DNA from: Thiofilum flexile DSM 14609
GTDB taxonomy: Bacteria; Pseudomonadota; Gammaproteobacteria; Thiotrichales; Thiotrichaceae
Reading direction: 5' to 3'
NCBI RefSeq assembly: GCF_000380185.1
Contig: NZ_KB904754.1
Location: 1 to 64,000, forward strand
Length of the DNA stretch: 64,000 bases
The position numbers and the translations under genes are program-made. The notes under the pieces are model-generated. The model did no database searches. It worked only from the letters and a program-made list of their open reading frames with translations, and was not told the DNA's origin. Position 1 is the stretch's first letter; every line of letters begins with the position of its first letter. This document shows positions 20,460 through 35,262 of this stretch, one piece after another.

Positions 20460-21681
20460 TTGACATCCTCCCCGACCTAAAGGACGGGGATTCCTGCTGC
20501 CAGACGCTCATATCCGAGCGCGAGAATGTTCTTAGCCGCATTAATATCTCTATCATGCAGCACCCCACACTCAGAGCAAGACCATTCTCTTATTCCAAGA
20601 CCCGCTCTACCTTTCGGACTATTAGGGCTTATACAGCCGCAACACGAACACGTCTGGGTAGTGTACTGTTCATTGACCTCTAGAAACACCCCTGACCGCG
20701 CACTCGCTTTGTATTTCAGTTGTGTCTTGAGCATAAACCAGCCCGCATCTAAAACGCTCTTTGCCATCTTCGTTTTAGCGAGACCGGAACTGCTCACGTT
20801 GCCAATGACGATTAAGCCGTTTGCTTTAACGACTTTATTGGAAAATTGATGGATAGCCTCTAAGCGCCTGTTTTTAATCTGGGCGTGGATAGCCTTTACC
20901 CGTTTCTTTTGCTTAGCGCGTTGAGCTTTGCCTAGTTTAGGTTCTAGCTCTCGATAGAAATCACCACGCTCTAATTTATCCCCATTGCTACAGGTTGCGG
21001 TGTCTTTTAGACCTAGGTCAATACCCACTTCACCCGTAGCAGGTGTTAGGTTATTAACGACTTCTACTACTACATTGAAGTACCAACGGCCTCGCGCCTC
21101 TTGGGAAAAAGAGCCAGAGCGAAACTCATATTGAGAAAGCCCATAGCTATCCCATACACCAAAAAAATGACCCGCATAGCGTACTTGCCCATGCTTCCAA
21201 ACCGCAGCACCTTTTTTAAAGGGTATCCAACCTAAGGAGCGTTTAGAACCACTCGATACTCTCCAACGCAGTTTGCTTTTCTTGAATTGCTTACGCGCTT
21301 TTTCGTGAACCGCAATGGTTTCTTGAATCGTCGAGGAGTGAATCATAAAGCCACGTTCGGCTTTAATGCCTTTGAGTTGGCTTTGTAGGTCATAAGCACT
21401 GAGATAAAGTGAGTGAAAACCAAACTCTGGAATGAAAAAGTGAGAATAATAGGCGGTTTCTTCATTCGCGGCATTCCACACCTGATTCACCTCAAACGCC
21501 ATACGTTCAAGAATAGGCTTGTATTTATCCTTGATGCGAACTTTGAGAGTTTTCAGGTGAGTGGATGATTTCATGATGTTGATTATACTACAAAAGGTGC
21601 TAACTGCTATAACCGTGGTACTACCTTTCATCGGCTGTCGCCGATCGCCTTATATCCCCTAGCTGAAGCAAGGGGCTTTAC
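20460..21681 (-). mobile_element. IS200/IS605-group element carrying tnpB only
   Basis: About 1.2 kb. The right end at 20460-20490 has the family hairpin: TCCCCG-A-CC ... GG-A-CGGGGA around TAAA, preceded by TTGACATCC. The left end at about 21656-21681 has the second hairpin, CCCCT ... AGGGG, then CTTTAC. No Y1 transposase (tnpA) is present, so it needs one in trans to move. Insertion coincides with loss of the 5' part of a glutathione S-transferase gene. Boundaries are estimated from hairpin positions. Confidence 0.8.
20477..21574 (-). CDS. tnpB: TnpB, RNA-guided nuclease of an IS200/IS605 element
   Basis: 365 residues. N-terminal helix-turn-helix/WED-like region, then a split RuvC domain: D186 in GIDLGLKDTA, zinc ribbon C309-C312 and C333-C336, and HDRDINAAKN with D341/D343. 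The second RuvC glutamate, normally in an IVVEDLN-type motif, is replaced by G258 in LIVIGNVSSSGLAKTKMAKSVLDAGW-like sequence; E302 just before the zinc ribbon (VNEQYTTQTC, where many relatives have Pro) could substitute. Whether the nuclease is active is therefore open. The stop codon lies inside the right-end hairpin, as expected if the 3' end doubles as guide RNA. The ATG at 21574 matches the family start better than the upstream one at 21631. Confidence 0.9.
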   Translation of the reverse strand: MKSSTHLKTLKVRIKDKYKPILERMAFEVNQVWNAANEETAYYSHFFIPEFGFHSLYLSAYDLQSQLKGIKAERGFMIHSSTIQETIAVHEKARKQFKKSKLRWRVSSGSKRSLGWIPFKKGAAVWKHGQVRYAGHFFGVWDSYGLSQYEFRSGSFSQEARGRWYFNVVVEVVNNLTPATGEVGIDLGLKDTATCSNGDKLERGDFYRELEPKLGKAQRAKQKKRVKAIHAQIKNRRLEAIHQFSNKVVKANGLIVIGNVSSSGLAKTKMAKSVLDAGWFMLKTQLKYKASARSGVFLEVNEQYTTQTCSCCGCISPNSPKGRAGLGIREWSCSECGVLHDRDINAAKNILALGYERLAAGIPVL

Positions 21682-25832: not shown

Positions 25833-25908
25833 TGGTGGGTCGTGCGCGATTCGAACGCGCGACCACCTGATTAAAAGTCAGATGCTCTACCGACTGAGCT
25901 AACGACCC
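25833..25908 (-). tRNA. tRNA-Lys (anticodon TTT)
   Basis: 76 nt including encoded CCA. Acceptor GGGTCGT pairs with ACGACCC; D-arm GCTC/GAGC; anticodon stem-loop TCTGA-CTTTTAA-TCAGG with TTT; T-arm GCGCG-TTCGAAT-CGCGC. A terminator follows directly. The 3' end faces the degraded accessory cluster, a usual place for element integration, though no duplicated tRNA end was found. Confidence 0.97.
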
Positions 25909-25996: not shown

Positions 25997-27847
25997 CTAC
26001 GCTGTTCCCAACCGAATAGGCCTAATATCTAAGACATTATCATCTGGCCTGCAATCTAATAATACTAAATCTTTACCATTTTCAGGTATCTGCGGCAAGC
26101 TCACCCACAGTTGGGTAGTAGATTGATGGGCTAAGGTATTCAAATGCGCCAGTGCCTGACTTAATAATGGCTCAGTAAAACTAAGCAATGCCTCGTCCCA
26201 AAATAAACTATGCTGATTTGTCCCATGCCTCAATGCTAACGCTTTTGCCAAGCTGAGTCGCAATGCCATAGCAATCTCACGCTGCACTTCTGCTTTAAGT
26301 GTTTTAAAGGGAGTGCGTGACTGATTAGACTCTTGTATTACATAAAGCTGTAAGTCATCTGCTAACTCAACTCCCTGATACTCTCCCCCAGTCATAGCCT
26401 CAATATAAGCCCGTGTACTGTGATTAATCGCACCATTAAAACGAACCGCTGCCTGATGATGAGCACGATTAAGCAGCCCCTGCGCCATAATTTGAACCTG
26501 TAACTGCGTTTGTGCCGCCCCTAGCACTGTTTGACGCTCTAATTGTTGTTGCTGTATTGCCTGAGCCTCTTGTGCTTTCGTTTGCTCACGATAAATATCC
26601 TCATTGGCTCGTGATAATAACCCAGCCGTCATTTGCTGACGTTGCTGTAAATTCACCACTAAACCATCCGCGAGATGGCGCAAATCCGTTGGTTCGATAG
26701 CATAATTTTCTACCCTATTCGACCACTTAGCCAAGGACTGCATATCCATCAGCATATCCGCACTTTCAGGGGCTATCTGTTTTTCACGCAGCCAATCTGC
26801 TGTAGCCGGATGAAGCAACTCATGTAAGGACACACTCATCATACGATAGCCGGTATATAAGCGTTGCGCCAACAGACCTACCTTACTACGCAGTGGTGTC
26901 ATTTCCTCATTTGCCAAACGATAGGCAAAAAAGACAGCTACCGCAGCACTAATGCCCAATAGTAAGGCTATCCAAATCATGAGTTTAGAGGCACCTGTCC
27001 ATAAACTCTCAACCCACAGAGTAAACCCACTACTTAAACTCCCCCCCAGCAAAATCAACATCAGTAGCAATAATAGTCCCGCCCCCCAATGCAAAGAACT
27101 CACTTGGCGTTTGATTTGGTGATAGAGGGGATAACGCCGCTCATAATGTTGAGTTTCCTCACCAATTTGCTCGGCTAGCGCATAATGCTGCTCTTGAGAA
27201 TTTGATAATTCGGCTTGCGTTTCTTGTAACCATTTTAAACGTAAGGGATCGACTTTCCGCTGTTTTAACTGAGCGGCTTGCTCTTGTAAGGTCTTTTCTA
27301 ATTGCTCCGACTTAGAAAGGGCAGTACGGGTATCATTTTCAATTAAGTCGTGTACTTGCTGATAGACCTGCACCCCCGCCATGGCCTGTATGGCCTCTAA
27401 ATCAGCCGTACTAGACTTTGTGAGCCGCTGACTCCAATAAAAGGTTTGATTAAAGACTTTATGCCCATAACCCAACAAATTTTGTAATACCGTTTGTACC
27501 TGCTGGATGGCATCGGCAATCACTTGTCCGGTAGAGCGATCCCATAACACAACACTCATCTGCCCAGCCGTACTAATCGTGCGCTCAATTAATAGCGCCT
27601 TATCATTAATCTGAAACGCGAGTTGGACTATCGCCTCTTCCTGCCCCCAACGTATTAATTGATGCAGTGTTTTCGCCCCCACCCGATCCGAGAGGCCAAA
27701 GAGGGCAAAAACAATAGCCTCCCCAATAGCGCTCTTACCCGTTTCATTACCGCCAACGAGTAAAATCACTCCATTGGCGGGAATCAATTGAATATTGAGG
27801 TGCAGAAATTGGCGAAAATTTTGTGCCTGCAATGCTTGAACGATCAT
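25997..27847 (-). CDS. SbcC/Rad50-like ATPase with central transmembrane segments
   Basis: 616 residues. The N-terminus is an SMC/Rad50-type half ATPase (LQAQNFRQFLHLNI, Walker A GGNETGKS at ~32-39), followed by a short coiled coil (~150-245). Two hydrophobic segments (about 253-278 and 290-313) sit where Rad50 would have its long coiled coil and zinc hook. A second coiled region follows, then a signature-like ALRLSLAKALALRHG, Walker B LFWDEALLSF and a C-terminal strand. It is therefore probably anchored in the inner membrane with both ATPase halves in the cytoplasm. No SbcD/Mre11 nuclease gene is adjacent. It overlaps the preceding 68-residue gene by ATGA at the end of the tol-pal operon. 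Confidence 0.75.
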   Translation of the reverse strand: MIVQALQAQNFRQFLHLNIQLIPANGVILLVGGNETGKSAIGEAIVFALFGLSDRVGAKTLHQLIRWGQEEAIVQLAFQINDKALLIERTISTAGQMSVVLWDRSTGQVIADAIQQVQTVLQNLLGYGHKVFNQTFYWSQRLTKSSTADLEAIQAMAGVQVYQQVHDLIENDTRTALSKSEQLEKTLQEQAAQLKQRKVDPLRLKWLQETQAELSNSQEQHYALAEQIGEETQHYERRYPLYHQIKRQVSSLHWGAGLLLLLMLILLGGSLSSGFTLWVESLWTGASKLMIWIALLLGISAAVAVFFAYRLANEEMTPLRSKVGLLAQRLYTGYRMMSVSLHELLHPATADWLREKQIAPESADMLMDMQSLAKWSNRVENYAIEPTDLRHLADGLVVNLQQRQQMTAGLLSRANEDIYREQTKAQEAQAIQQQQLERQTVLGAAQTQLQVQIMAQGLLNRAHHQAAVRFNGAINHSTRAYIEAMTGGEYQGVELADDLQLYVIQESNQSRTPFKTLKAEVQREIAMALRLSLAKALALRHGTNQHSLFWDEALLSFTEPLLSQALAHLNTLAHQSTTQLWVSLPQIPENGKDLVLLDCRPDDNVLDIRPIRLGTA

Positions 27848-28050
27848 ATCCCCGCATCCTGCTCAGACTGACTGACAGTATCAATTTGTGCAAGTGCATA
27901 ACTCACTGCCTGCAAATAGAGTTTGCTATCAAACATTAGATTTTGCTGTTGAATCAAACGGTCAGTTTTACAAAACTCCAAAAACCGTCGACCCGCTGCC
28001 GTCCGTGGCTGTAAAGTCGTATACCAATCTTGTATGGGTGGCTGGGACAT
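27844..28050 (-). CDS. Small hypothetical protein upstream of the SbcC-like gene
   Basis: 68 residues (MSQPPIQDWYTTLQPRTAAGRRFLEFCKTDRLIQQQNL...), soluble, not recognised. A GAGGT motif lies before the ATG, and the stop overlaps the SbcC-like start by four bases, so the two are probably made together and may act as partners. It follows cpoB by 41 bp. Confidence 0.65.
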   Translation of the reverse strand: MSQPPIQDWYTTLQPRTAAGRRFLEFCKTDRLIQQQNLMFDSKLYLQAVSYALAQIDTVSQSEQDAGI

Positions 28051-28091: not shown

Positions 28092-29075
28092 CTAGAACCC
28101 CTCACTGGTCATTTGCTCAATTCGAGCTTGTGCTAAGCGAGCTGCATTACTACTAGGGAAGTACTCAATAGTGTCCTCTAATGATTGGCGTGCCATTTCC
28201 CAACGTTTGAGTTCATAAAAGGCATAGCCCATTTTTAAAGCCGCGTCGGGTGCTTTGGCGCTATTTTTATAACGTTGTAACACTTTCGCAAACTCATCCA
28301 CCGCACGAGCATAATTATCTTGTGCATATAAAGCCTCACCTAACCAATATTGAGCATTAGCTGCCAAAGGATGGCTAGGATACTGCCGCAAAAACTCTTC
28401 AAAGGCGGGGACTGCTTGAGCAGGACGCGCTAGTAGTAACTTATAAGCTGTATTATAGGCCTCCCCTGCTACTATATCGGCCTGTGTTTCATTAGCAGGA
28501 ATCAAAGGAGCGCTGGGCGTCACATCTGAACTACGTAATGAAGTAGCCGCTGGTCGTGCTACAGGTTTAACGGGCTTCTCGGCTCTATCCTCTGCAGTTT
28601 TTTCAGTACCATAGTAATAATAACTATCCGAACTCTCAGGACTCACCTTCTCAGCCGTTCCTACCATTCCCTCTGGGCTATTCGCAGGATCAGGAATCTG
28701 AATACCCTCCGAGGTCACCACAGGCTCTGCCCTAGGTGCAGGTGCGGGTACTGGCGCTGGAACCGGGGCAGGAGCAGCCGGCACTTGAGAAGATTGTACC
28801 CGCTCTGAGCGCACGGGGGTTTCTCCTGGTACTTCTAGCTTTTGCACCCGCTCATCTACTTGTAAAAAGCCATCTTTTTGATTTTGTTGCAGTGTTTCAA
28901 CTTGATTATATAGCTCTTGATTTTTCCCGCGTAAATTACGCACCTCTTGCTCTAATTGATTCAGTCGATTGACTAATTGTGCGGCGGCCTCATCTTCGAC
29001 CGGAGCAGCAGCAACTTGCGTTGCTACTCCACCGATTACCCCCCCTAAAGCCCAGCCTATTATTATTTTCTTCAT
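28092..29075 (-). CDS. cpoB: Tol-Pal system coordinator CpoB (YbgF)
   Basis: Periplasmic protein linking Tol-Pal to peptidoglycan synthesis at division. 327 residues: signal peptide (1-24, ending VAAA), an N-terminal coiled coil (~30-75) as in CpoB trimers, an extended Pro/Ala linker (~85-205) and TPR repeats (~210-325; YNTAYKLLLARPAQAVPAFEEFLRQYP, AQYWLGEALYAQDNYARAVDEF). The linker is longer than in E. coli (263 aa in total). It follows pal by 6 bp. Confidence 0.93.
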   Translation of the reverse strand: MKKIIIGWALGGVIGGVATQVAAAPVEDEAAAQLVNRLNQLEQEVRNLRGKNQELYNQVETLQQNQKDGFLQVDERVQKLEVPGETPVRSERVQSSQVPAAPAPVPAPVPAPAPRAEPVVTSEGIQIPDPANSPEGMVGTAEKVSPESSDSYYYYGTEKTAEDRAEKPVKPVARPAATSLRSSDVTPSAPLIPANETQADIVAGEAYNTAYKLLLARPAQAVPAFEEFLRQYPSHPLAANAQYWLGEALYAQDNYARAVDEFAKVLQRYKNSAKAPDAALKMGYAFYELKRWEMARQSLEDTIEYFPSSNAARLAQARIEQMTSEGF

Positions 29076-29081
29076 AGTGGA

Positions 29082-30074
29082 TTATTCTCCAATATATTTA
29101 ATCTCCACACGCCGATTTTGTGACCAAGATTCCTCATCTTGACCCAATTTAACTGGCATTTCCTCACCATAACCAATGGTATTCATACGTGCAGCACTTG
29201 CTCCACGCACAGACATATAATCCCGTACCGCCATACTACGGCGTTCCGATAAGGCTAGATTATATTCGCGTGAACCTCGATCATCCGCATGCCCCTCTAA
29301 GCGGATTTGTGCGTTTGGATTAGCACGTAAGTATTTAGCATGAGCATCCAGAATTGCCATGTACTCAGGCTTAATAGAAGATTGATCATAATCAAAATAG
29401 ACAATACGACGCGCTAATAACCCTGCATCAGCCCCCCCTGTGCCACCTTGATTATTATAATTCCCCCCAGCACCATATTGTCCACCAGAACCACCGGAAC
29501 CATACTGTCCACCAGAGCCGCCGTATTGTCCGCCTGAACCAGACTGACCTTGCCCGCCTGAACCGTATTGTCCACCACCATACTGACCATTGCCTTGATT
29601 ATTAGCATATTGGCCTTGCCCTGCACCACCATAACCATATTGTCCGGTAATACCCCCACGGTTACGGTTGGCTTGCTGCTGCCGCGCACGAGCCGCTGCG
29701 GCTGCCGCTGCACGTTGACGGGCTAATTCTGCTTGACGCGCACGCTCTGCAGCTGCCCGCCGACGCTCAGCTTCATAAGCATCATAACCAATGCCACTGC
29801 CATTATCATAGCCATTTGTATTGGTACCTGTACCACCACGTCCATAGCTACCCCCTTGGCCTCCAGCACCATTGCTACCCCTGCCTGAGCCACTTCCTCC
29901 CATGCCGCTGCCTAGCCCACTACCACCACTAGCATCCTCCAAATAAGTAGTCGTGGTATCGATGGTGGTCATTTCTGAAGCATTAGCCACCAATGGTGCG
30001 GTACTTTGCTGAGCACATCCTGTCAAAGCTCCAGCTACCAATATAGTTAACATAGAAAATGGTTTTATACGCAT
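29082..30074 (-). CDS. pal: Peptidoglycan-associated lipoprotein Pal with enlarged linker
   Basis: Outer-membrane lipoprotein that binds peptidoglycan. The signal ends in lipobox LTGC (Cys20). The OmpA-like domain fills about residues 220-330 (VYFDYDQSSIKPEYM, LEGHADDRGSREYNLALSERR, NRRVEIKY). Between them lies ~170 residues of low complexity: Gly/Ser, an Arg/Ala-rich helix (~105-140) and GQYG/GGQYGSGG repeats. At 330 residues it is nearly twice the E. coli protein (173). The linker would let the peptidoglycan domain reach much further from the outer membrane. Confidence 0.93.
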   Translation of the reverse strand: MRIKPFSMLTILVAGALTGCAQQSTAPLVANASEMTTIDTTTTYLEDASGGSGLGSGMGGSGSGRGSNGAGGQGGSYGRGGTGTNTNGYDNGSGIGYDAYEAERRRAAAERARQAELARQRAAAAAAARARQQQANRNRGGITGQYGYGGAGQGQYANNQGNGQYGGGQYGSGGQGQSGSGGQYGGSGGQYGSGGSGGQYGAGGNYNNQGGTGGADAGLLARRIVYFDYDQSSIKPEYMAILDAHAKYLRANPNAQIRLEGHADDRGSREYNLALSERRSMAVRDYMSVRGASAARMNTIGYGEEMPVKLGQDEESWSQNRRVEIKYIGE

Positions 30075-30114
30075 AACATAAGTCCTTGACTCTGTTCACT
30101 GATCATTAGAACGT

Positions 30115-31371
30115 TTAAGGTAAATAAGGTGACCAAGCAGGATTACGAGCGGCTCCTCCTTGGATAGGCAAAAACTGGCGCGACTTACCATTATCACTTG
30201 ACACTGCTAATTGCTCCCTACCCCCAGCACGCGTGGCATACACTACCATGGCACCATTAGGCGCTAGTGATGGCGACTCATCGGCTCCACCTCTAGAAAC
30301 TGTAGCACTATTCTTAGTCGAAGCATTCATAATCGCAATCTTAAAACCCGCACCTAATTGACGAACCATACCAATTTTATTCTTTACAATACTGGGGGCT
30401 GCATTGTAATCACCCTGGAAAGTAATCCGCTGCCCATCACCACCATTCACAGTGGTTCGATAAAGCTGTGGCTTGCCCCCTTGGTCTGAGGTATACACAA
30501 TCGTATTATTACTTGCCCATGCCGGTTCAGTATCAATCGCTCGATCTTGAGTAACTCGTTTAATCGCGCCATTACGTACATTGACCACGTAAATGTCCGT
30601 ATTATCCTCATCGGTTAAACTAATTGCGATTTGAGAGCCATCGGGTGACCACGCGGGTGCTCCATTTGTACCCTCATATAGCAGCAAGACGCGCTTATCA
30701 CCACTTTTCAGGTCTTGAATAAATACCGCCGAATGATCCTTTTCAAAAGAAGAGTAGGCTAAAAAGCGTGCATCAGGCGACCATGCTGGGGATAAAATAG
30801 GTTTATTCGATTGCATGACTGATTGGGGATTATAGCCATCCGCATCCGCCACCATGAGCTGAAACGTCTGACTCCCTGCCGCTCCATTGGCTAATATATA
30901 GGCCACCTTGGTATCAAACGCCCCCTTAATCCCAATCATTTTTTCAAATAATAAATCCGCCGCCTTATGCGCCATCCGCCGTCTATTCGGATGAGGTGGA
31001 ATACGATAACCGGCTACCCGTTCACCTGTTGCCGTATTCAATAACTCCACGGTCAGGGTATCGGTTTGTGATCCTACCACCACATAATCCGCCCCAGAGC
31101 GCCGCAATACCTCTATATTAAACGGCTTACCTAACTCTAGACGTTGCCCAGCTTTGGCTGGACTAATTAAGGTAAAGCGCCCACTACGATCAAAATCAGC
31201 TTCAATAATCTTGGCAGCCTGATCATCCCCTGCAAAAGGAGCGATCATAATTGGCAAGGCTTGGTCAATCCCATCCGTAATACGCACCTCAATAGCCGCA
31301 GATACCGAGGTACTTGCCATGACATAGAATGCCAAGGCACTCATCCACTTGAATATTGTTTGATAGTTCAT
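30115..31371 (-). CDS. tolB: Tol-Pal periplasmic beta-propeller TolB
   Basis: 418 residues: signal peptide (residues ~1-27, ending SVSAA), N-terminal domain (IEVRITDGIDQALPIMIAPF), and a six-bladed propeller with repeated SPAWSPD, APAWSPDGSQIA and NPAWSPY motifs. It exchanges between Pal and TolA. The ATG at 31371 lies just after the tolA stop; a TTG five codons earlier is less likely. Confidence 0.94.
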   Translation of the reverse strand: MNYQTIFKWMSALAFYVMASTSVSAAIEVRITDGIDQALPIMIAPFAGDDQAAKIIEADFDRSGRFTLISPAKAGQRLELGKPFNIEVLRRSGADYVVVGSQTDTLTVELLNTATGERVAGYRIPPHPNRRRMAHKAADLLFEKMIGIKGAFDTKVAYILANGAAGSQTFQLMVADADGYNPQSVMQSNKPILSPAWSPDARFLAYSSFEKDHSAVFIQDLKSGDKRVLLLYEGTNGAPAWSPDGSQIAISLTDEDNTDIYVVNVRNGAIKRVTQDRAIDTEPAWASNNTIVYTSDQGGKPQLYRTTVNGGDGQRITFQGDYNAAPSIVKNKIGMVRQLGAGFKIAIMNASTKNSATVSRGGADESPSLAPNGAMVVYATRAGGREQLAVSSDNGKSRQFLPIQGGAARNPAWSPYLP

Positions 31372-31375
31372 AAGG

Positions 31376-33727
31376 TTATGGCTCAAAAATAATTCTTAAA
31401 TCCTCGTTATATAATTCATCGTAACGCGGCCTAGGAAAGGGTTCCGACTTTCGAATAGCGGCCACTAATGAATCACAAAACGCTCGACTGCCACTACAGT
31501 TAGCGACTTTTAGGCTTTTTACATAGCCTGGCGGACGCACAACCAAAGCAATGGTTGCTCGCATGCCAAAGGTATCTTCTGGCTCAATCCAATTAGAACT
31601 GACTCGTTGACGGATCTGCCGCGCCCATTCTTGTTGCCCACGATCTAAAGCTTGGCGATCAACACTACTAGGGGCACGAGCATTAGCAGACTCTCTGGTA
31701 CGCGCTGCTGCTCTAGCACGAGCCGCATCAGCCTCTGCTTTGGCTTTTTCTTCTGCAGCAGCACGAGCACGTACCGCTCTGGCGCGTTCGGCCTCTGCCT
31801 CCGCTTTTGCCTTCTCTTCTGCAGCAGCACGAGCACGTGCCGCTCTGGCGCGTTCGGCCTCTGCCTCCGCTTTTGCCTTCTCTTCTGCCGCAGCACGAGC
31901 GCGTACTGCTCTAGCACGCGCTGCTTCCGCTTCAGCTTTTTCTTTCTCCTCTGCAGCGGCACGAGCACGAGCCGCTCTAGCACGCGCTGCTTCTGCCTCA
32001 GCTTTTTCTTTCTCCTCCGCTTCGGCACGAGCACGAGCTGCTGCTCTAGCGCGAGCAACGGCTCTAGCTCTTGCTTCCTCCGCTTCTGCCTCAGCTTTAG
32101 CTTTTTCCTCTGCTTCGGCACGGGCGCGAGCAGCAGCTCTAGCACGTGCGACGGCTCTTGCTTCCTCTGCTTCAGCCTCGGCTTTGGCTTTTTCTTCCGC
32201 CTCTGCACGAGCGCGGGCGGCGGCTCTGGATCTCGCTTCAGCACGAGCACGCGCCTCGGCTTCTTCCTTGGCCTTTTCTTCAGCTTCGGCACGCGCACGC
32301 GCTGCTGCTCTAGCACGCGCTATTTCTGTTTCTACCCTTGCTTTCTCTTCCGCCTCTGCACGTGCTCTAGCTTCGGCACGAGCTTTTGCTTTCGCCTCCG
32401 CTGCTTCTTGCTCCTTACGCTCTGCCTCTTTGGCTAACCATTTTTCACGCGCAATCGCCTTAGCTTGCTCCTCTTCACGACGCTTAGCCTCAGCTTCAGC
32501 CGCTGCAATACGTGCTGCTACCCGTTTATTTTCTTGTTCTTCTGCCTCAGCTTTTGCTTTGGCTTCTTCACGGGCTTTTTCCTTCTCGCGCTCGCGTCTT
32601 GCTTCAGCTCGTGCCTCTTCGCGGGCTTTTTCCTTTGCCTCAGCTTTAGCCTTTTCCTCCGCTTCGGCTTTTGCCTTGGCTTCTTCGCGCGCTTTCTCTT
32701 TTTCGCGCTCGCGTCTTGCTTCAGCTCGTGCTTCTTCGCGGGCTTTTTCCTTTGCCTCAGCTTTAGCCTTTTCCTCCGCTTCAGCTTTTGCTTTGGCTTC
32801 TTCGCGAGCTTTTTCCTTCTCACGCTCGCGTCTTGCTTCGGCACGTGCTTCTTCGCGGGCTTTCTCTTTTGCCTCAGCTTTAGCTTTTTCCTCCGCTTCA
32901 GCTTTTGCTTTAGCTTCTTCACGTGCTTTCTCTTTCTCACGTTCACGTCTTGCTTCGGCGCGTGCTTCTTCACGCGCTTTGTCTCTTGCTTCGGCCTTCG
33001 CTTTCTCCTCTGCTTCAGCTTTAGCCTTGGCTTCTTCACGCGCTTTCTCTTTCTCACGCTCGCGTCTTGCTTCGGCTCGTGCTTCTTCGCGGGCTTTGTC
33101 TTTTGCTTCAGCTTTAGCTTTTTCCTCTGCTTCGGCCTTTGCTTTGGCTTCTTCGCGGGCTTTTTCCTTTTCACGTTCACGTCTTGCTTCGGCCCGTGCT
33201 TCTTCGCGGGCTTTGTCTTTCTCTTCTGCTATAGCTTTTACTTTGGCTTCTTCGCGGGCTTTTTCTTCTGCTTGGGCTTTTAAACGGGCTGTTTCCCGTG
33301 CCTTTATTTCGGCTTGTTGTGCGGCTATTTCTGCAGCTTGACGCTCTGCTTCTAAACGCGCCGTTTCTTGCCTGGCTCGCTCTGCTTCTGCCCAACGTTC
33401 TAACTGCTGTTTAGCGGCGGGGTTAGTATCCTCCGGTAAGACCTGCTCCTCTAAGGGGGGTAGCTCAGATAGACTTTGCAGACGATCGGGTAACGTAGTC
33501 TGATTGCTTGAATCCGATAACGGTGGCTCTGATAGCGGCGGCTCTTGCTTAGCCTCATCTAGTGGTGGGGTTTTAATACCTTCGGTCATTAGCACCGTGT
33601 CAGGTTGCTCGGAAACCTTTGGTATAGATTCCCACTTAAAACTAATAATCAGTAACAACACCACTACGATATGCAAAATAATTGCAATAGCTAACGCTTT
33701 GGGATGTTTGAGTAACTCTTTTAGCAT
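31376..33727 (-). CDS. tolA: TolA with greatly expanded repeat domain
   Basis: Inner-membrane protein spanning the periplasm to energise Tol-Pal. One transmembrane helix (residues ~11-30, ALAIAIILHIVVVLLLIISF), a huge Ala/Lys/Glu/Arg helix and a C-terminal domain (~690-783, WARQIRQRVSSNWIEP...) that meets TolB/Pal. At 783 residues it is nearly double E. coli TolA (421). The helix contains six near-perfect 39-residue (117-bp) tandem repeats, each including EARREREKEKAREEAKAKAEAEEK, at about 32545-33230, then shorter RARAAAEEKAKAEAEAER-type repeats. The repeats create long antisense open frames, which are not genes. Confidence 0.92.
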   Translation of the reverse strand: MLKELLKHPKALAIAIILHIVVVLLLIISFKWESIPKVSEQPDTVLMTEGIKTPPLDEAKQEPPLSEPPLSDSSNQTTLPDRLQSLSELPPLEEQVLPEDTNPAAKQQLERWAEAERARQETARLEAERQAAEIAAQQAEIKARETARLKAQAEEKAREEAKVKAIAEEKDKAREEARAEARREREKEKAREEAKAKAEAEEKAKAEAKDKAREEARAEARREREKEKAREEAKAKAEAEEKAKAEARDKAREEARAEARREREKEKAREEAKAKAEAEEKAKAEAKEKAREEARAEARREREKEKAREEAKAKAEAEEKAKAEAKEKAREEARAEARREREKEKAREEAKAKAEAEEKAKAEAKEKAREEARAEARREREKEKAREEAKAKAEAEEQENKRVAARIAAAEAEAKRREEEQAKAIAREKWLAKEAERKEQEAAEAKAKARAEARARAEAEEKARVETEIARARAAARARAEAEEKAKEEAEARARAEARSRAAARARAEAEEKAKAEAEAEEARAVARARAAARARAEAEEKAKAEAEAEEARARAVARARAAARARAEAEEKEKAEAEAARARAARARAAAEEKEKAEAEAARARAVRARAAAEEKAKAEAEAERARAARARAAAEEKAKAEAEAERARAVRARAAAEEKAKAEADAARARAAARTRESANARAPSSVDRQALDRGQQEWARQIRQRVSSNWIEPEDTFGMRATIALVVRPPGYVKSLKVANCSGSRAFCDSLVAAIRKSEPFPRPRYDELYNEDLRIIFEP
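32545..33230 (-). repeat. Six tandem 117-bp repeats inside tolA
   Basis: Each unit encodes 39 residues, starting (K/R)(D/E)KAREEARAEARRERE. Copies differ mainly at silent positions and at the second residue (D or E). Boundaries are approximate. Confidence 0.8.
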
Positions 33728-33737
33728 TGTATTGTTC

Positions 33738-34148
33738 TCAAGGGTTACGTTCCGGCTCAGCCATTAAACCAATCTTTTTCGCACCCGCTTTTTGCACGGC
33801 GACCATGGCTTGCATCAAATAATGATACTCAACACGCCCATCACCTTTGACATAGACGGGGCGTTCAGCAGATGCACGTATTTTATCCTGAATAACATCG
33901 GTAATTTCTTCTAGGCTCATTGGGTTATCACCCTCAAGAAAATACTTCCCCTCATGATCCACCACTACAATCAAAGGCTCTTGTTGATTATTCGTGGTGA
34001 GTGGGTCGGCATTGGCTTCGGGTGCATCGACTTCAACGCCCGTTTTCATCATAGGAGCGGTAATCATAAAGATCACCAGTAACACCAACATGACATCGAT
34101 GTAAGGCACGACATTCATCTGTGCCATCGCTTTACGTGGGCGTCTCAT
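33738..34148 (-). CDS. tolR: Tol-Pal inner-membrane protein TolR
   Basis: 136 residues. One transmembrane helix (~18-36, PYIDVMLVLLVIFMITAPMM) carrying the conserved proton-path aspartate (YIDVMLVLL), then a periplasmic ExbD-like domain. It overlaps tolQ by four bases and precedes tolA by 10 bp. Confidence 0.95.
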   Translation of the reverse strand: MRRPRKAMAQMNVVPYIDVMLVLLVIFMITAPMMKTGVEVDAPEANADPLTTNNQQEPLIVVVDHEGKYFLEGDNPMSLEEITDVIQDKIRASAERPVYVKGDGRVEYHYLMQAMVAVQKAGAKKIGLMAEPERNP

Positions 34149-34837
34149 GACTTACTCCGTTGCGTGACCATATGGCGCTCTAATAAAGCGGTAAATTCTT
34201 CGCGGAAATTCTCATAACTCACCGCCAAACGCTCTACTTGATCACTAAAACGGTTATAGGCAATTAGGGCTGGAATCGCCGCAAATAGGCCAATCGCAGT
34301 GGCAATCAAGGCCTCTGCAATACCGGGGGCTACCACATCAAGGGTAGCTTGTTGCATTTTACCCAGTGATAAAAACGCATTCATAATCCCCCACACCGTA
34401 CCAAATAGCCCCACATATGGGCTGGTCGAGGCGACGGTGGCTAAAAAGGTTAAGTTCTGTTCTAAATTATCAATCTCTTTAGAAGCGGCTACTCGCATGG
34501 AGCGTTGTACCGCATCGGATACAGAAAAATCAGAACTCACCGCATCCAATTTACTAGTACGCCGGTATTCATGAAAACCATCATAAAAAATCCTTTCCAT
34601 GCCGGTACGGGTGGCTGTCTTTTGCGATAGCTCATCGTATAGGGAGTTCAGCGCCATCCCACTCCAGAAACGCTCCTCAAATTTAAATGCTTGCTGCTTA
34701 GCCCTACCTAGGGCATAGGATTTGCTAAAAATTAAAGTCCACGACAATAAAGAGGCGAGGACGAGTAATAGCATCACCACCTGTACTACCGGACTAGCAT
34801 CGGTAATAAGCTTCATGACCGATAGATCAGCATTCAT
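34145..34837 (-). CDS. tolQ: Tol-Pal proton-channel protein TolQ
   Basis: 230 residues, three transmembrane helices: one near the N-terminus (VVQVVMLLLVLASLLSWTLIF) and two in the C-terminal half (FLATVASTSPYVGLFGTVWGIMNAF; IATAIGLFAAIPALIAYN). With TolR it forms the proton-driven motor. ATGA overlaps on both sides (ybgC and tolR) show tight coupling. Confidence 0.95.
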   Translation of the reverse strand: MNADLSVMKLITDASPVVQVVMLLLVLASLLSWTLIFSKSYALGRAKQQAFKFEERFWSGMALNSLYDELSQKTATRTGMERIFYDGFHEYRRTSKLDAVSSDFSVSDAVQRSMRVAASKEIDNLEQNLTFLATVASTSPYVGLFGTVWGIMNAFLSLGKMQQATLDVVAPGIAEALIATAIGLFAAIPALIAYNRFSDQVERLAVSYENFREEFTALLERHMVTQRSKS

Positions 34838-35262
34838 ACGAGTAAACTCCTGATTTCGTGAGGAATAGCGGTTGACTTAAACTTATCTAACTGCACACAG
34901 ACCACTTTGACGCTGGCGGTAATTAAGAGTTCAGCCTCTGTGGTTAAATTACGACGAGTAACCGTTTGCTCAAACTCGATACTAGCTCGTCCTAAATGCT
35001 TCACCCGTGCAGTAACTTCGATTTGATCATCAAACTTGGCTGGCTTTAAATATTCAATACTAAGACTACGGACTGCAAAGGCTATATTTAAAGCATTCAT
35101 TAAATAGTGTTGCTCAAAACCCAATTGGCGTAGCCATTCGGTACGCGCCCGCTCCATAAAACGGATATAACCCGCATGATAAACGACACCACCCGCATCG
35201 GTATCTTCATAATAGATACGAATAGGCAAACTAAAATGATTAGAAACTACTAATTGAGTCAT
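34834..35262 (-). CDS. ybgC: Acyl-CoA thioesterase YbgC
   Basis: 142-residue hotdog-fold thioesterase with the active-site motif YYEDTDAGGVVYHAGYIRFMERART near the N-terminus. It heads the ybgC-tolQRAB-pal-cpoB operon, the classic arrangement. Confidence 0.93.
   Translation of the reverse strand: MTQLVVSNHFSLPIRIYYEDTDAGGVVYHAGYIRFMERARTEWLRQLGFEQHYLMNALNIAFAVRSLSIEYLKPAKFDDQIEVTARVKHLGRASIEFEQTVTRRNLTTEAELLITASVKVVCVQLDKFKSTAIPHEIRSLLV

Follow-up and report, generated by a model that had tools for sequence, protein, structure and literature searches.

SMC and Rad50 machines have been studied as soluble DNA clamps, and the head together with the base of the coiled coil is the place where the helix-loop-helix of Mre11 or a kleisin binds. 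Among SbcC-like ATPases, YhaN of Bacillus has membrane segments. Lamassu systems contain LmuB, a short Rad50 relative of ~650 aa (PMC10586767). Here, we analysed a two-gene pair of Thiofilum flexile within a 64,000-nt stretch of DNA (the window). The pair consists of a Rad50/SbcC-like ATPase gene and, directly before it, a gene for a small helical partner.

The ATPase resembles SbcC/Rad50 in its head fold (VIA-align Z about 30), in matching archaeal Rad50 in a profile search at E 1e-40, and in the order lobe, coiled coil, apex, coiled coil, lobe. It differs from SbcC/Rad50 in carrying a predicted transmembrane (TM) hairpin where the zinc hook would be, in its much shorter arms, and in adjoining a helical protein of about 65 aa instead of a nuclease. 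Moreover, it scores far below the NCBIfam cut-offs, reaching at best 46.2 bits against the 847 required for the SbcC/Rad50 equivalog. With SMC-kleisin complexes the pair shares ABC heads on coiled coils and a small non-enzymatic subunit, but the putative TM hairpin occupies the position of the hinge domain, and the partner credibly matches neither a kleisin nor any other PDB chain. Similarity to YhaN is confined to a weak AAA_27 match of residues 1-64 (23.3 bits, cut-off 22), which covers only profile positions 1-65 of 206. In 58 genomes of the class, a single protein exceeded the AAA_27 threshold (1164 aa, in genome G092). It lacks a TM peak and is matched weakly by the family profile of the ATPase, and identity with YhaN was rejected on the grounds that this sole AAA_27 protein has no TM peaks.

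The position of the pair behind cpoB at the end of the tol-pal operon, proposed in a first-pass annotation, was borne out by the open reading frames and by NCBIfam and Pfam matches (Table 1). The upstream operon is complete, with YbgC, TolQ, TolR, TolA, TolB and Pal recognised by Pfam and CpoB by NCBIfam (TIGR02795, 108 bits, cut-off 90). A gap of 41 bp separates cpoB from the partner gene on the same strand, and no clear terminator was found between them. The stop of the partner gene overlaps the start of the ATPase gene by 4 nt (ATGA). TolA (31376-33727) is unusually long at 783 aa, and its middle is highly repetitive and rich in Ala, Lys, Glu and Arg. Elsewhere in the window, an open reading frame at 20477-21631 resembles a TnpB-type protein of IS200/IS605 elements, with a putative CxxC zinc ribbon.

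Table 1. Features of the pair and its surroundings in the T. flexile window.
Feature	Coordinates	Strand	Remarks
Rad50/SbcC-like ATPase gene, 616 aa	25997..27847	-	ORF; predicted TM hairpin at residues about 249-307
Partner gene, 68 aa, predicted three-helix product	27844..28050	-	ORF; no Pfam, NCBIfam or PADLOC family
ATPase N-lobe, residues 1-160	27368..27847	-	Walker A GGNETGKS and Q-loop region intact
ATPase predicted TM hairpin, residues 249-307	26927..27103	-	Hydropathy and AF2 model
ATPase C-lobe, residues 460-616 and stop	25997..26470	-	D551-E552 retained; S518-x-G520 and D558 lost
cpoB/ybgF, upstream of the pair	28092..29075	-	NCBIfam
ybgC-tolQ-tolR-tolA-tolB-pal, remaining tol-pal operon	29082..35262	-	Pfam
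tRNA-Lys(ttt), downstream of the pair	25833..25908	-	
Terminator-like hairpin after tRNA-Lys	25826-25794		Strong

By sequence and by model, the ATPase is a Rad50-class ABC ATPase. Pfam AAA_23 matches it at 8e-15. An AF2 model built from 77 sequences has a mean pLDDT of 89.8, and Foldseek relates it to the heads of E. coli SbcC and of archaeal and bacterial Rad50 at E about 1e-15. The VIA-align Z scores to SbcC/Rad50 heads are 28-30, including 29.8 for the E. coli SbcCD head (6s85) and 29.9 for a bacterial Rad50 (3qf7), and both the N- and C-terminal ABC lobes of the Rad50 fold are present in the model. The predicted chain runs from the N-lobe (to about residue 156) through helices 160-197, 203-275 and 280-338, then through short helices and a long helix (386-485) to the C-lobe. 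Walker A (G32 to K38), the Q-loop residue Q140 and the acidic pair of Walker B (D551-E552) are conserved. The first-pass annotation had described Rad50-type ATPase ends at both termini; this is correct for one half only, as the signature motif and the D-loop of the C-terminal end are lost.

The apex is predicted to be a TM hairpin. Averaged over 19 residues, Kyte-Doolittle hydropathy has two peaks, one of 2.11 starting at residue 249 and one of 2.62 starting at residue 289. Both peaks lie inside the long modelled helices 203-275 and 280-338, which are joined by a short loop near residue 277. A pair of such peaks (first ≥1.6, second ≥1.2) occurs in 124 of 125 distinct relatives, T. flexile included, and both peaks reach 1.6 in 112 of them. 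The middle of the T. flexile protein has no CxxC. A hook-like CPxC was found at the apex in none of the 125 relatives; 120 have no CxxC anywhere in the middle, and the motifs of the other 5 are not CPxC-like. Hydropathy and helix length together indicate that the ATPase is probably inserted in the inner membrane by this hairpin, in agreement with the earlier proposal that two TM segments replace the zinc hook. Most relatives are about 600-650 residues long, and eight complete ones reach 742-766. Arm lengths thus differ among relatives, and the distance from head to membrane would vary with them.

T. flexile encodes an SbcC of its own, with a CPLC hook, on contig C57, and the sole SbcD-family match of the genome (TIGR00619) lies on contig C46. 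No SbcD was found next to the pair, as had been noted at first, and the ATPase of the pair is present in a single copy. Because SbcC and SbcD are encoded elsewhere, the ATPase is a protein other than the SbcC of the cell, and an ordinary zinc-hook SbcC was rejected as its identity. In one relative (L031), sbcC and sbcD are split: the protein encoded after SbcD (404 aa) has leucine-rich repeats, and SbcC is found on a different contig.

The pair is a conserved two-gene module across many sulphur-oxidising bacteria. The ATPase is encoded in 58 of 63 Thiotrichaceae genomes, in all 8 genera (E 1e-5 or better), and the order-level search comprised the same 63 genomes. It is missing from three incomplete genomes (G025, G032 and G033) and from two that are 99-100% complete (G038 and G049), and it is dispensable because these last two lack it. 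Close relatives of G038 and G049 carry the ATPase; soxB is present in both genomes and dsrA in G038. In the class sample, at least 37 of 370 genomes match at 1e-12, 35 of them strongly and from 15 families. At least 24 of 397 genomes match in the phylum sample, 22 of these from a second class in which the ATPase occurs in 22 of 30 genomes. In both samples, scoring was limited to three candidates per genome, which makes the counts from the two samples lower bounds. Named carriers, which come from 80 loci retained out of 176 by two sequence patterns (one being the signature itself), include Thiothrix, Cocleimonas, Leucothrix, Sedimenticola, Thiodiazotropha and tubeworm symbionts. Among them are the cultured Thiothrix fructosivorans, T. 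caldifontis, T. lacustris, Cocleimonas flava and Sedimenticola selenatireducens.

The partner gene lies directly upstream of the ATPase gene in 120 of 125 distinct relatives. For the other 5 the sequence ends too soon: four have less than 105 nt upstream (L140, L074, L171 and L176), and in L088 the C-terminal end of the partner runs off the locus. The commonest spacing is -4 nt (89 of 155 loci in which a partner was found, duplicates counted). The suggested translational coupling to a small protein is thus matched by a lasting association of the two genes. A chance or isolated open reading frame was rejected in view of these counts and of the 58 family genomes. The ATPase tree broadly follows taxonomy. 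Two sequences titled Aquificaceae and Polarisedimenticolaceae (L122 and L131) fall within gammaproteobacterial ATPase clades and are probably misassigned metagenome bins.

The partner measures 60-70 aa across the module and is modelled as three helices (6-13, 18-34 and 42-65; pLDDT 83). Searches of Pfam, NCBIfam and PADLOC assigned it to no family, and its alignment of 73 members shows no recurring Pfam family. When its structure alone was compared with the PDB, the 3 matches all had E values of 1 or more, and a sequence-profile search there gave nothing credible, kleisins included. Neither protein of the pair belongs to a named family. In the titles and abstract openings searched, mostly outside subscription journals, no description of the family of the pair was found. 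The module is therefore real, conserved, undescribed within that literature, and a variant of the Rad50 kind.

We propose, with a probability of roughly 55%, that the pair forms an ATP-gated clamp of the Rad50 kind that is tethered to the membrane, works with a helical partner lacking nuclease function, and has been secondarily altered in T. flexile. By sequence and model, the two lobes of the ATPase form a cytoplasmic head, from which the coiled coil runs towards the inner membrane. There the TM hairpin would hold the far end of the coiled coil, at the place where Rad50 dimerises through zinc. The partner is made just before the ATPase and, we infer, would bind near the head and the base of the coiled coil without bringing a nuclease. 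Two protomers may engage their heads around ATP and so clamp a substrate close to the membrane; DNA is a plausible substrate and would be the most likely one. In T. flexile, the signature and D-loop, which make up the half-site acting on the opposite subunit, are gone while Walker A, for ATP binding, is kept, leaving a protein that may be a static anchor or in decay. If true, the proposal would show how such motors attach to the envelope, with an anchor in place of the dimerisation apex and a 65-residue helical protein in place of the nuclease, and the pair would offer a compact two-protein system for testing envelope attachment. A wider generalisation is more tentative and in our view doubtful: that Rad50-type clamps tethered to the membrane and paired with a miniature partner that is not a nuclease make up a new class. 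Such clamps would be core equipment of many sulphur-oxidising Pseudomonadota and would use ATP to control how DNA, or some other polymer, is held at the inner membrane, with a half-site pseudo-ATPase in the T. flexile lineage.

The alteration in T. flexile concerns the signature S-x-G, replaced by K518-A-E520, and the D-loop, in which D558 is lost. Each of the 44 distinct relatives whose selection did not depend on a sequence pattern retains S-x-G; one pattern-selected relative (L151) is frameshifted at the signature. T. flexile departs from the consensus at 21 of 56 conserved columns (defined by agreement of at least 93% among the other 112 rows), against a median of 1 per row and a next highest value of 9. 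Its terminal branch on the ATPase tree is by far the longest (1.83 versus a median of 0.12). Judged by sequence identity, TolB of the same operon is not fast-evolving: T. flexile and L092 share 58% and L092 and L099 52% in TolB, whereas the corresponding values for the ATPase are 26% and 36%. A frameshift is excluded as the cause, because the alignment stays in register before and after the changes. Since the signature and D-loop are gone and Walker A is retained, the T. flexile ATPase probably binds ATP and cannot form a normal ATP-sandwiched dimer; it has probably been turned secondarily into a half-dead ATPase. The lost motifs and the long branch could also mean that the gene is simply decaying and without function. 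We consider this unlikely, given that the frame is open over its full length, that the predicted TM hairpin, Walker A, the DE of Walker B and the partner are all retained, and that the losses cluster in one half-site (17 of 31 conserved columns in the C-lobe versus 4 of 24 in the N-lobe; Fisher p 0.005). In this one genome, the changes may reflect either decay or a new use.

Other functions can be weighed against the tethered clamp by means of gene content and neighbours. The module is largely confined to genomes with dsrA (dissimilatory sulphite reductase), a correlation confounded by kinship, and the pair might serve sulphur oxidation, for example by organising the membrane or sensing in cells with the reverse Dsr pathway. 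Of the 35 ATPase-positive genomes in the class sample, 31 carry dsrA, versus 94 of 335 others (Fisher 2e-12, with genomes that are related and counts that are not independent). By family, it is found in 14 of 15 of the ATPase-positive set (p 8e-5 to 9e-7, assuming 120 to 165 families). A Sulf_transp (YeeE/YedE) gene lies next downstream of the ATPase gene in T. caldifontis (L100, 9922-11184), and proteins with similar starts occupy the same place in other Thiothrix loci. However, the 94 dsrA-positive genomes have no ATPase, and in the second class dsrA occurs in 20 of 22 ATPase-positive and in 7 of 8 ATPase-negative genomes, which shows no enrichment. Four ATPase-positive genomes of the class sample are exceptions: two of one family, f74 (G135 and G247), have neither dsrA nor soxB, a third (G324) has soxB, and a fourth (G339) has weak soxB fragments only. 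In the loci inspected, none of the genes next to the pair was recognised as a dsr gene, and a role in sulphur oxidation appears quite unlikely.

An anti-phage function, with a short Rad50-like sensor and a small subunit as in Lamassu or another defence system, would suit the generic PADLOC matches of the ATPase to mad3, LmuB and AriA (best 1.5e-7 in T. flexile and 1.2e-18 in the relative L134) and its LmuB-like length. We regard it as very unlikely. The ATPase is a single-copy gene, near-universal in Thiotrichaceae, and broadly tracks taxonomy, unlike patchy defence islands. No effector is visible beside the pair, and the partner and four other neighbours in the window matched no PADLOC model at the thresholds used, Lamassu effectors and LmuC-type subunits included. 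The passages on LmuB consulted in PMC10586767 do not mention a TM hairpin, and the word 'transmembrane' occurs 0 times in the paper. The first-pass annotation had favoured a cell-division role, and a membrane ATPase acting with CpoB and TolA at septa would agree with the short, apparently terminator-free gap after cpoB. Upstream sequence of at least 1 kb is available for 108 relatives. In 15 of them cpoB precedes the pair, all within the Thiothrix clade, the 21 relatives that group with T. flexile on the ATPase tree, but it does so in none of the other 93. Even within that clade, 6 of the 21 have the pair without cpoB upstream. An RNase II-type gene was confirmed upstream in L134, and in other lineages the pair is preceded by further unrelated genes, such as putative trxA-rho or hslVU-like genes. 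The expected arrangement after cpoB thus recurs only near T. flexile, and the tol-pal position is local, because other lineages have other neighbours. This weakens the cell-division reading, and a Tol-Pal factor is, to our judgement, the least probable of these functions.

The tethered clamp predicts a contact between the two proteins, and covariation was compared across 113 pairs (effective number 54). Cys27 of the partner and Cys599 of the ATPase are conserved, both being present in 104 of 113 rows; they looked like a redox pair, but a strict one is unsupported, as 4 rows retain Cys599 although the Cys of the partner is gone. By mutual information with APC, partner R22 and ATPase Y162 rank first of 212,899 column pairs. 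The basic residue in the partner and the aromatic residue or His in the ATPase each change three times, and these changes coincide on the tree; the column pair was picked after the fact and mostly follows the Thiotrichaceae split, and an independent-pairs sign test gives p 0.25, three pairs being too few to reach significance. As a lead only, this column pair points to a partner contact at the base of the coiled coil: residue 162 is the start of the first coiled-coil helix, which we take to be the Mre11-binding part of Rad50.
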